This document shows positions 8,819 through 12,363 of a DNA stretch of 20,572 nt, one piece after another. Location of the stretch: the IMG/VR virus record IMGVR_UViG_3300048837_000726, positions 1-20,572 of that record, one strand, 5' to 3'. Within the stretch, counting starts at the first letter, position 1. Each line of letters begins with the position of its first letter. The DNA is from a virus. The position numbers and the translations under genes are program-made. Under the pieces are notes generated by a model that had not been told where the DNA came from, did not search any database, and worked only from the letters and a program-made list of their open reading frames with translations.

Positions 8819-9253
8819 ATGGATCACACCAATCGACACACCAAGATCGCAGCCGACGGCTCTGTGCTGCCGGTTCACGCCACCGTGTGGGACGCCGTGC
8901 TGGACAACCACACTGGATTCATGTGGCCCGTGAAGGCAATCCGAATCCCGAACGGCCACGAGAAGACCATTCGTGCTGCCTTGGCAGAAACCCAGGGTTG
9001 TGCCGGCTTCCACGACTGGGCCGCGCCCTCGGTGGAGCAGTTGTTCACGCTGCCCGATCGCACGCGCGTCAACCCGGCGATCGACACGAACTACTTCCCG
9101 AACTGCCCTCCTGACTGGTTCTGGTCGATTACGCCCGACAGCGTGTCGCCCTTGGATCTCGCGTGGAACGTCAACTTCTACTACGGCATTTCGAACCGGA
9201 ACAACCGCAACAACAACGGTTGGTTCCGCGCCGTGCGCGTCGGTCAGCTCTAG
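8819..9253 (+). CDS. DGR target protein, DUF1566 (Lcl C-terminal, C-type-lectin-like) domain
   Basis: ATG 8819 is preceded by GAGGT at 8806-8810; an upstream in-frame TTG at 8804 has no such support. The 144 residues make one DUF1566-like domain: DNHTGFMWP near the start, CAGFHDWAAPSVEQLFTL (61-78), NPAIDTNYFP, WFWSITP, and a C-terminal strand set ending GWFRAVRVG. The last 35 residues are encoded by a variable repeat (9140-9244) matched by a template repeat downstream. Residues changed against the template are Val109, Tyr121, Tyr122 and Ile124. DGR targets usually use such lectin-like folds to bind varied ligands. The ligand here is unknown, and there is no signal peptide. Confidence 0.82.
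   Translation: MDHTNRHTKIAADGSVLPVHATVWDAVLDNHTGFMWPVKAIRIPNGHEKTIRAALAETQGCAGFHDWAAPSVEQLFTLPDRTRVNPAIDTNYFPNCPPDWFWSITPDSVSPLDLAWNVNFYYGISNRNNRNNNGWFRAVRVGQL
9140..9244 (+). repeat. DGR variable repeat (VR)
   Basis: These 105 bases match 9753-9857 with four differences, at 9144, 9179, 9182 and 9189. In every case the template has A and this copy has T. The repeat ends nine bases before the target gene's stop codon. Its 3' end is GC-rich (ccgcgccgtgcgcgtcggt), as expected for the site where mutagenic homing starts. Beyond it the two copies diverge (cagctc here, gagtgt in the template). Confidence 0.9.
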
Positions 9254-9271
9254 GCCCATTGGTCTTCTGAC

Positions 9272-9700
9272 ATGCACGAAGCACCTACCATCGTGAAAGC
9301 AAGCGAGCGCGTGCTTGTGGAGATCGAGGGAGCCGTCCGCGGATTTTCTCGGTATCACAAGTACGCTGTCGGCGCTGAATTACGCTCGGAAGCACGGCGC
9401 GTTGCGCGGCTCGCCAATCGTGCGTGGCGGGATCATCACCGGCGGGCGGAATGGCTCAGTCGGCTATCGTTTGCGATCGATGATTTGAAACTCTCTCTGC
9501 AGATCGCAAAGCGTGTCGAGGCCTTCACTGGCTTCAAGCAGTTCCAGGCCCTGGCGCGCATCGTTTACAACCTCGGCCAGCAGTGTGGAGGCTGGCAGAG
9601 ACGTCATTCCTGTAAGGGCCAGAACTCGCAGACCAATACGTCCGCGGGGCGTGCCCAGACACTGAGTGCCCGCGACGCCTCGCAAGAGGCTATTTCATGA
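9272..9700 (+). CDS. avd: DGR accessory variability protein (Avd-like)
   Basis: Avd is a small four-helix protein that binds the reverse transcriptase and the template RNA and is needed for mutagenic homing. This 142-residue protein has the usual Avd pattern: a YHKYAVGAELR start to helix 2, a basic RRVARLANRAW helix, then RLSFAIDDLKLSLQIAKR, FTGFKQFQALARIVYNLGQQ and the final GGWQ. After GGWQ there is an unusual tail of about 40 residues rich in Ser, Gln and Ala. The gene lies between the target gene and the template repeat, in the order avd has in the Bordetella phage BPP-1 DGR. Confidence 0.85.
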   Translation: MHEAPTIVKASERVLVEIEGAVRGFSRYHKYAVGAELRSEARRVARLANRAWRDHHRRAEWLSRLSFAIDDLKLSLQIAKRVEAFTGFKQFQALARIVYNLGQQCGGWQRRHSCKGQNSQTNTSAGRAQTLSARDASQEAIS

Positions 9701-9855
9701 CGAAGCGGTCCTACCCCTCTGGATGGTCCGCCGGGTCCAAAGTTCGCGGGTTAGCGAGTCGCCCTTGGATCTCGCGTGGAACGTCAACTTCAACAACGGC
9801 AATTCGAACCGGAACAACCGCAACAACAACGGTTGGTTCCGCGCCGTGCGCGTCG
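9701..9855 (+). ncRNA. DGR template RNA region between avd and RT
   Basis: This gap carries no convincing gene: readings across it are shifted-frame versions of the repeat. In known DGRs the template RNA covers the end of avd, the TR and the start of the RT gene, and is bound by RT and Avd. I infer the same here; the exact ends cannot be seen in the sequence. Confidence 0.5.
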
Positions 9856-9857
9856 GT
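9753..9857 (+). repeat. DGR template repeat (TR)
   Basis: This 105-base copy of the variable repeat lies between avd and the reverse transcriptase gene. It contains 25 adenines, mostly in AAC or AAT (Asn) codons in the target frame, spelling a N-rich stretch (NFNNGNSNRNNRNNN). AA-rich codons at positions meant to vary are typical for DGR templates, because the enzyme misreads template adenines. It would be transcribed as part of the template RNA and is not itself a gene. Confidence 0.9.
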
Positions 9858-10236
9858 GAGTGTCACCAAGGATGTCGTTACTCTGCAGGCTCTCTACGCT
9901 GCCTGGCGCGAGGCCCGCCGCAAGAAGAAGCCCAGCAACGACCAGGTGGGCTTCGAAACCTTCTGGATCGATAACCTGCAGCAGCTGCTGGAACGCGTGA
10001 TCGCGGGCACATGGCAGCCGGATCCACCGACGTGTTTCGTGGCCAAGCAGCCGAAAGCCAGAGAGATTCACGCGCCGACGTTCTCTGATCGCGTTATCCA
10101 TCACTGGCTGGTGCCGCAGCTCGAATGGATCTACGAGCCGACGTTTATTTTCGACTCCTTCTCGAATCGCCGCGGCAAAGGCACGCATGCTGCGATCGAC
10201 CGGTTGCAGGCTTTCGTGCGCCAGGTGCACAGTGGC
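9856..10236 (+). pseudogene. DGR reverse transcriptase, truncated before the catalytic motifs
   Basis: From GTG 9856, at the last bases of the TR, the frame encodes the N-terminal part of a DGR-type reverse transcriptase: LQALYAAWREARRKKKPSND, NLQQLLERVIAGTW, PKAREIHAPTFSDRVIHHWL, EPTFIFDSFSNRRGKGTHAA and IDRLQAFVRQV. This covers the finger region up to motif 2. The expected continuation with the first catalytic Asp and the YxDD box is absent: at about 10230-10240 the sequence changes to unrelated DNA, although the frame stays open to 10632. With no catalytic Asp the product cannot be an active polymerase. A deletion is the simplest explanation. Confidence 0.85.
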
Positions 10237-10255
10237 CAAAGTAAAGGAGAAAACC

Positions 10256-10632
10256 ATGCTGACCGACTGCCCGAAGTGCTGGATGTCCCTCTGCGAATGC
10301 GGATGGGAGTACAGGAATTGGCCGCTCATAGAGCGGAAGACGCTCGCGAGGCGCAAGGCACCGCCGTCATCAAGGCGCAGAGGGAGAAGATTGCGGAGTT
10401 GGAGCAGCAGATCGCCGGCGCGAACGCGACCATTGCGCATTTCATGGGGCCAGATGGCGAGCGGCACGCCGAGCGGTTCACGCGGCAGGTGGAGCGCATT
10501 GCCGAGTTGGAGCAAGCACTCGACCCGCGCCGGTGGACGCAGGAACAACATGCGGCTTGGCATCGAAACATCCCGGATGTGCAGGCAGCATTCGCGGCAC
10601 TCAGATCACTAATGGTGAGCGTGCCGAAATGA
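10256..10632 (+). pseudogene. Cys-rich / coiled-coil phage gene, apparently frameshifted
   Basis: ATG 10256 has a strong binding site (AAAGGAGAAAACC) and opens MLTDCPKCWMSLCECGWEYRNW, a Cys-rich segment that looks like a real zinc-site start. After about 35 residues this frame turns into Arg/Ser-rich non-protein-like sequence. The -1 frame, shared with the truncated reverse transcriptase, gives a convincing coiled coil (VIKAQREKIAELEQQIAG, then ERFTRQVERIAELEQAL) ending at 10632. One net -1 shift near 10350-10370 would join both into one protein of about 125 residues. I see no slippery heptamer. Decay or a sequencing error are both possible. Confidence 0.55.
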
Positions 10633-11017: not shown

Positions 11018-11278
11018 ATGGTTGTCCTTCCCGTCAATTGGGTCACCGGTCCACGGTTCTACGAACTTACCGGCTACACTGAGGATGCGTGCGATAAGAA
11101 GCGCTCGCAGGGCGTCTGGCTGGAGGGTGGTGTCTGGAAGAAGGCACCGGACGGACGCATCCTGTACAGCATCGAGGGGTATCACGCATGGGTCGAGGGA
11201 AAGGCGTTCGCGCCACAAGCAGATCGAGCATCGGCATCACGTTCCAGTATCGCGGCGCGCGCTGCCGGGAGAAGCTAA
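11018..11278 (+). CDS. xis: Putative excisionase (Xis-like)
   Basis: The 86-residue protein has the pattern of small phage excisionases of the winged-helix type: NWVTGPRFYELTGYTEDACD is a helix-turn-helix-like start, KKRSQGVWLEGGVWKKAPDG a wing, and ILYSIEGYHAWVEG the last helix. Xis proteins bend attachment-site DNA and direct the integrase toward excision. It overlaps the integrase gene by 91 bases, a common xis-int arrangement. The last 25 residues (APQADRASASRS and on) lie in the overlap and are probably unstructured. Confidence 0.72.
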   Translation: MVVLPVNWVTGPRFYELTGYTEDACDKKRSQGVWLEGGVWKKAPDGRILYSIEGYHAWVEGKAFAPQADRASASRSSIAARAAGRS

Positions 11279-12363
11279 AGCTTCGTCCGACCGATGCGAA
11301 TCGGAAATGGGCGGAACGACTGAAAGCCACGATCGAGCACGAGATCGCGACCGGTACATTCGACTACGCGAAGCACTTCCCGAACTCTCCGCGCGCGCGC
11401 ACGTTCGCACGTACCCCTGGCGCAGCAATCACTGTGGGAGAGCAGCTAGGGGTATGGCTTGACGGCAAGAGTGGTGAGGTTGAACCAGAAACCTGGGATG
11501 AGTACGAGAAGGACGTCCGTAAGCACCTGAAGCCGCAGTTCGGTGAGACGCGCCTATCGGACCTCACGCGGCAGGACGTCAAGACCTGGGCGGCCGGCAC
11601 GAAACTCAGCCGCAAGCGACTGAACAACATCCTCATCCCGCTGCGATCAATGCTGAACGAGGCCGTCGATCAGGACCCGCCGCTCATCCCTCGCAATCCA
11701 TTGCATGGCTTCGAGTTGAAGCGCCTGCGAACTCTGCAAACCAAGGACACCGTAGATCCATTCTCTCAAGAGGAAATCGCCGCCATCCGCGAACACAGCG
11801 ATCCGCAGTTCGCTGACTTCGTGGAGTTCTGGTGCTGGACCGGACCGCGCCTTGGCGAAATCATTGCGCTGCTGTGGGCGGATATCGACTTCCTCCGCGG
11901 CTCCATGCGCGTCGCGCGAGCCGTCCGCGAAGGACGCCTCAAGGCACCGAAAACCGAAGCGGGTGAACGGGACGTGAAATTGCTCGCCCCTGCCCTCGCA
12001 GCGCTGGAGCGGCAAAAGGCGCGAACCTATCTGGCTGGCCAGCACATCTGGCACAACCCCAGAACAGGAGAACCGTGGACGGGGGACGGTCCGATCCGGA
12101 AGACCGCGTGGGTGTACTCACTGAAGAAAGCCGGCGTGCGATATCGTGGACCGAAACAGCTTCGGCACACGTTCGCGAGCTGGATGCTTTCTGCCGGCGA
12201 GAATCCGCTGTGGGTCGCAAAGCAGATGGGCCATGAGGACTGGTCGATGATCGTGAAGGTCTACGGACGATGGATTCCGGAGGTGGACCCGCTCGCCGGG
12301 AGCCGTGCCGTCACGCTGATTTATGGCACGACTGCGGCACGATCAGAAGAAAAGGCCAAGTAG
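11188..12363 (+). CDS. int: Tyrosine-family site-specific integrase
   Basis: A 391-residue lambda-type integrase. Residues 10-65 form an arm-site-binding domain of the DUF3596 type (FQYRGARCREKLKL, then FDYAKHFPNS). Residues about 80-165 form the core-binding domain (VGEQLGVWLDG, WDEYEKDVRKHLKP). The catalytic domain follows with Arg221 (TGPRLGEI), Lys255 (APKTEAGERDV), Arg326 (KQLRHTFAS), His349 (KQMGHED) and nucleophile Tyr359 (KVYGRW). The usual first His of the HxxR box is Lys323, a change also seen in related enzymes. The gene ends 15 bases before the putative attachment core, whose neighbouring repeats could be its arm sites. Confidence 0.95.
   Translation: MGRGKGVRATSRSSIGITFQYRGARCREKLKLRPTDANRKWAERLKATIEHEIATGTFDYAKHFPNSPRARTFARTPGAAITVGEQLGVWLDGKSGEVEPETWDEYEKDVRKHLKPQFGETRLSDLTRQDVKTWAAGTKLSRKRLNNILIPLRSMLNEAVDQDPPLIPRNPLHGFELKRLRTLQTKDTVDPFSQEEIAAIREHSDPQFADFVEFWCWTGPRLGEIIALLWADIDFLRGSMRVARAVREGRLKAPKTEAGERDVKLLAPALAALERQKARTYLAGQHIWHNPRTGEPWTGDGPIRKTAWVYSLKKAGVRYRGPKQLRHTFASWMLSAGENPLWVAKQMGHEDWSMIVKVYGRWIPEVDPLAGSRAVTLIYGTTAARSEEKAK
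12322..12331 (+). promoter_or_regulatory. Candidate integrase arm-type site, left side
   Basis: TATGGCACGA occurs here, inside the end of int, and again at 12474-12483 on the other side of the attachment core. A related GGCACGAT lies at 12336-12343. Direct repeats on both sides of the core are how lambda-type integrase arm sites are arranged. Function is inferred from position only. Confidence 0.35.

Follow-up and report, generated by a model that had tools for sequence, protein, structure and literature searches.

The stretch of DNA analysed here (the window) is the whole of the IMG/VR virus record IMGVR_UViG_3300048837_000726, 20,572 bases in length. It carries a cassette with an Lcl_C target gene containing a VR, followed by Avd, a TR and an RT-like reading frame, with an integrase gene downstream. 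The arrangement Lcl_C target, Avd, TR and RT is common to the relatives of this element. The features are as follows.

8819..9253, + strand: target gene, 144 aa, Lcl_C / C-type-lectin-like domain (PF07603, 5.8e-20)
9140..9244, + strand: VR, four A-to-T differences from TR, last 12 TR adenines intact
9245..9264, + strand: element directly 3′ of VR, family consensus approximately CAGTAATNGGCCTTTTGGC, a weak mini-hairpin and, judging from the sequence, a likely target-recognition site
9272..9700, + strand: avd, Avd accessory protein (phrog_3206 "Avd protein of DGR", 2.6e-15)
9697..10632, + strand: RT remnant reading frame, its ATG overlapping the avd stop; spans TR, with RT homology to ~10238 and unrelated in-frame sequence thereafter
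9753..9857, + strand: TR, nested in the RT reading frame
10238..10240, + strand: deletion junction, RT core gone, with AAAGGAG and the ATG (10256) of the following gene shortly downstream
11018..11278, + strand: probable excisionase gene (weak; DUF1233 putative excisionase, E 0.013, under the cut-off)
11188..12363, + strand: tyrosine integrase (PF00589, 8.5e-13; Arm-DNA-bind_2, 1.4e-23)

The tyrosine integrase marks the phage as temperate, and sequence resembling the probable excisionase gene occurs upstream of related integrases. The accessory protein of a functional DGR is present, as assigned by phrog_3206; the corresponding Pfam match is weak (bAvd, PF22296, 27.3 bits versus a cut-off of 40). 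No RT and no Avd match was found in the four integrase relatives (L139–L142). No close relatives turned up when the target protein was searched against viral contigs and phages, the virion protein against viral contigs and the entire window against phages, nor in searches with the downstream reading frames.

The C-terminus of the target protein is formed by the VR. The predicted structure of the protein has a mean pLDDT of 83, falling below 50 at residues 108–114. With a second-look aligner, the best match to this model was the C-terminal domain of Legionella Lcl (8q4e_A; Z 9.8, rmsd 3.5, 113 aligned), and C-type lectins matched with Z scores of 4.3–6.4; Foldseek alone gave no match with E < 0.001. 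A PDB profile search with the target alignment yielded 8q4e at E 0.034 and 6ama at E 0.65. By the Lcl_C assignment and the Z scores, the VR lies in the C-terminal C-type-lectin-like domain of the target, as is typical of DGRs.

We compared VR and TR base by base. As the initial annotation had stated, exactly four of the 105 positions differ (9144, 9179, 9182 and 9189; TR counterparts 9757, 9792, 9795 and 9802), each with A in TR and T in VR, affecting residues 109, 121, 122 and 124 when counted from ATG 8819. Differences at TR adenines, here 4/4, are the hallmark of a DGR pair. Adenines make up 25/105 TR bases, as had also been noted, and four differences placed at random would all hit adenines with a probability of 0.0026 (hypergeometric). 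The 19 other aligned TRs without exception carry A at the counterparts of 9792, 9795 and 9802, so at three of the four sites it is the VR that changed and the TR adenine is ancestral. Site 9757 is not polarised, with C in 14/19 TRs of relatives. The uniform change to T, which the initial annotation had stressed, holds for all four sites but is uninformative, because adenines in these codons often become T in relatives; the share of T among changes there is 0.36 at position 1 of AAC and 4/4 at position 2 of AAT. For a reconstituted BPP-1 DGR, PMC12875486 describes an AAC context that favours tyrosine. Since the 105 bases contain no non-adenine difference, both the last copying and the RT deletion were probably recent, and the DiGReF authors used the same argument for RT-broken DGRs in their account of such elements (PMC3521204).

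Just outside the 105-base frame, the next mismatch (VR 9245 C, TR 9858 G) is not at an adenine. The boundary is fixed in the family, with CAG following 41/41 VRs and GAG following 20/20 TRs. A mismatch at this 3′ repeat end is as expected of a DGR IMH/IMH* boundary. Directly 3′ of VR, a CAGTAATNGGCCTTTTGGC-like element was recovered by a loose pattern in 40/41 cases; it is possibly a mini-hairpin serving target recognition.

In 20/20 family loci, the ATG or GTG start of the RT reading frame overlaps the avd stop, and the frame continues across the complete TR to reach the RT core. A start overlapping the avd stop in the RT frame was found in 57/61 loci with an RT match. The TR is in the target frame in 16/20 loci and in another frame in 4/20, the window included. 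In two records (G001 and G018) this start is the sole one ahead of the RT core, which suggests that the TR is translated within the RT protein. At one locus (L122:3486–5282), Avd and a complete RT are encoded, together with a TR-like stretch, in a single open reading frame.

The RT reading frame of the window (9697–10632) covers only positions 86–226 of the 1040 in the PHROG reverse transcriptase profile and matched no RT family in Pfam. The closest RT found is the complete enzyme of IMGVR_UViG_3300044515_000034 (L002), 69% identical in one comparison and 68% over residues 61–183. DNA homology to the L002 gene stops at 10238, protein homology near residue 183, and the SQ motif (residue 265) and YVDD (residue 297) of L002 lie beyond this break. 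The RT gene of the window is thus cut after ~180 codons, and the remnant ends before both the catalytic YxDD and the SQ motif of a functional DGR RT, lacking the catalytic palm. An RVT_1 search of the whole window record gave no match, versus matches in 3/14 control genomes; among 15 relative records, RVT_1 matched 9/9 with a mapped intact RT and 0/6 with a mapped truncated one. Without the catalytic part of RT, the cassette of the window cannot work on its own. The exact junction pattern had 0 matches in other viral contigs, and the junction and the VR mosaic are known from one metagenomic contig. A disrupted RT together with a VR/TR pair changed only at adenines corresponds to the RT-inactivated DGR remnants of the Figure 4 legend in PMC3521204.

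To place this truncation in its family, we considered 62 loci from an Avd-profile scan plus the window, 63 in total. An RT with YxDD is present in 54/63. Six have an RT match without YxDD (L085, L086, L131, L132, L138 and the window), two lack RT in the fetched locus (L083 and L089, both near contig ends), and in one RT is cut by the contig end. By their contig names, L138 lies within record G016 and L089 within record G005. In G005, a record of 38.9 kb, the RT match ends at residue 133 and is followed by a reading frame that resembles a DNA methyltransferase by translation. In G016 (L138:3489–3902), the N-terminus of Avd is joined to the C-terminus of RT. The RT N-terminus with the TR-encoded peptide is fused in frame to a D12 adenine DNA methyltransferase (PF02086, 7.3e-9) in L085:909–2384 and L086:3920–5395, whose records are 99.9% identical (3 differences in 4403 bases, none in a VR). 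In L131/L132:3914–4798, RT is reduced to a C-terminal part without the RT core, and no TR was found. The RTs of G011 and G014 were cut by the locus end and the frame of G015 was end-anchored; these cases were settled by further mapping. This makes five distinct RT losses (window, G005, G016, L085/L086 and L131/L132), and the deletions in the window and in L085/L086 lie at nearly the same RT codon. It is quite unlikely, in our view, that loss of the catalytic domain with retention of Avd, TR, VR and the RT N-terminus recurs because it is useful, in that it locks a good VR while the retained part has its own function or awaits an RT in trans.

Homing in the family was assessed from related phages. 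Two sister phages with intact RTs (L097 and L098) show 63 differences in 7411 positions, 32 of them inside two VRs and none in the TR. Every one of the 32 VR differences falls on a TR adenine, and this substitution list is independent of any filter on adenine mismatches. Non-adenine differences at the same rate in related genomes, which the initial annotation had named as the observation that would speak against it, were thus not seen. Judging from these substitutions, the phage DGR family is active in homing, although VR diversification as such was seen only in L097/L098. Three other near-identical pairs are too close to be informative (L116/L117 with 1 difference, L102/L103 with 0, and the RT-truncated L085/L086 with the 3 given above), and L131/L132, with 116 differences in 6899 aligned positions, have no TR to score.

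We compiled two sets of VR/TR pairs, which overlap in records. Among 40 pairs from 19 related records, the VRs depart from their TRs at 587/1001 TR adenines (G at 334, T at 188, C at 65). This set omits pairs of at most 91 bases, the duplicate G007 (same record as G007b) and a tandem pair of the window (2–81/56–135). Among 94 distinct pairs from 51 of the 62 Avd-sampled loci, 1328/2267 are changed (723 to G, 435 to T, 170 to C), after omission of pairs with a TR below 75 bases, pairs without any TR/VR difference and repeats not located at the avd stop. Non-adenine changes number 7/3426 and 17/7942, respectively, both biased downward by the pair finder, which needs at least 75% of mismatches at A.

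Against this background, the VR of the window stands apart. Only 4/25 of its TR adenines are changed, whereas the minimum among the 94 relative pairs is 8/23. The last 12 TR adenines are all unchanged, an outcome with a probability of ~6e-6 given the per-position rates and assuming independent sites; the longest unchanged 3′ run in relatives is 4. The 5′ half is mildly low, with four changes versus 7.6 expected (P 0.025, sites again assumed independent). Homing by itself does not account for this outlying pattern of four changes, all in the first half. The template-like 3′ half suggests either that TR was later copied without mutation into this part of VR or that the assembly produced a mosaic.

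We consider the window most probably a DGR remnant in a temperate phage, which homed, then had its RT core deleted and has kept a frozen VR. Past mutagenic homing in the lineage, as first proposed, is well supported by the adenine-only differences, the fixed IMH-like boundary, Avd, the Lcl_C target and the VRs of relatives. Mutated cDNA made from TR RNA would once have taken the place of the VR, as in relatives; the RT core would later have been lost by deletion, with the VR frozen since. A VR mutated in its 5′ half and identical to the template in its 3′ half is best explained by a further round of copying from TR, this time without mutation and into the 3′ half, before or after the RT loss. 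TR–VR recombination was rare in a reconstituted BPP-1 DGR in E. coli (PMC12875486), which argues against a passive-recombination version of this step. As an alternative for the same pattern, the true VR may be diverse and the RT perhaps intact, the assembler having placed the high-coverage TR path in the 3′ half of VR, misjoined RT to the next gene, or both. The contig is metagenomic, the constant 3′ end common to VR and TR could bridge such paths, and among 95 VRs that of the window alone is so template-like. Nothing similar was seen, however, in the 94 other, mostly metagenomic, VR/TR pairs, and RT truncations occur elsewhere too, the L085/L086 fusion in two records and a separate truncation in G005 inside 38.9 kb. 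We regard an assembly mosaic as unlikely.

The intact Avd, TR, VR and 3′ element and the repeats without decay would also be compatible with an element that is still homing with an RT supplied in trans by a co-resident prophage or a host DGR. This is highly improbable, as the fraction of differing adenines is the lowest of 95 pairs and the rest of the record has no RT, though the record is a fragment. That all four changes are to T might instead reflect an RT of this lineage with a strong A-to-T preference and a low error rate, which we judge very unlikely. The codon contexts in relatives make the all-T pattern unremarkable and such an enzyme bias unneeded, and a low error rate by itself would not limit changes to the 5′ half of VR. 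An ordinary recent duplication with four A-to-T point mutations could account for 105 bases with just four differences. It conflicts with the small chance that all four lie at A, and Avd, the Lcl_C target, the RT remnant and the CAG/GAG boundary fit a family with hundreds of adenine-specific changes; the family comparison contradicts it, and we consider it extremely improbable.

The initial annotation had read the four differences as the fingerprint of mutagenic homing by an element that worked at some time in this lineage. That the locus is a DGR which homed once stands; a present working state is not supported, given the loss of the RT catalytic part and the low, 5′-only change that homing alone leaves unexplained. 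We suggest recasting this fingerprint as one of recent inactivation, the two being told apart by the RT core and by the density of adenine changes relative to relatives. PMC3521204 describes both DGRs whose RT is inactivated while VR/TR are intact and TRs that overlap the RT reading frame (group 3). The window resembles the inactivated elements treated there, with a broken RT and VR/TR changes only at A, read as recent inactivation, and A-to-G is the commonest change in the family as in the DGRs of that report. It differs from the inactivated cases described there (nonsense mutation, transposon insertion, frameshift) in having a large deletion. With four changes, the pair falls below the DiGReF threshold of seven substitutions, and 84% of its adenines are unchanged versus 13–79% in that report (PMC3521204).

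Like the BPP-1 DGR, the window has the gene order of one target, Avd, TR and RT, with Avd, adenine-specific mutagenesis and an IMH-like 3′ boundary. Unlike BPP-1, the TR of this family lies inside the RT reading frame, the group 3 arrangement of the DiGReF classification (PMC3521204), and the Lcl_C target proteins are short and often encoded as tandem pairs. The 3′ element of the family is of a short GGCC-TTTT-GGC type, compared with the 8-bp stem and GRNA loop given for BPP-1 in PMC3240598. The L002 DGR shares the cassette order and has an integrase-like reading frame downstream (by translation); unlike the window, it has a complete RT reading frame of 510 aa and two targets with 17 and 16 of 29 adenines changed. 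With its recurrent RT deletions and sister phages whose differences lie mostly at VR adenines, this family is suited to asking how often phages turn off targeted hypermutation.

Apart from the cassette, short protein repeats of the NSAQLAASG type are encoded at 1–135 of the window. Although an adenine-masked scan picks them out as resembling a VR/TR pair, their appearance is that of ordinary tandem repeats.
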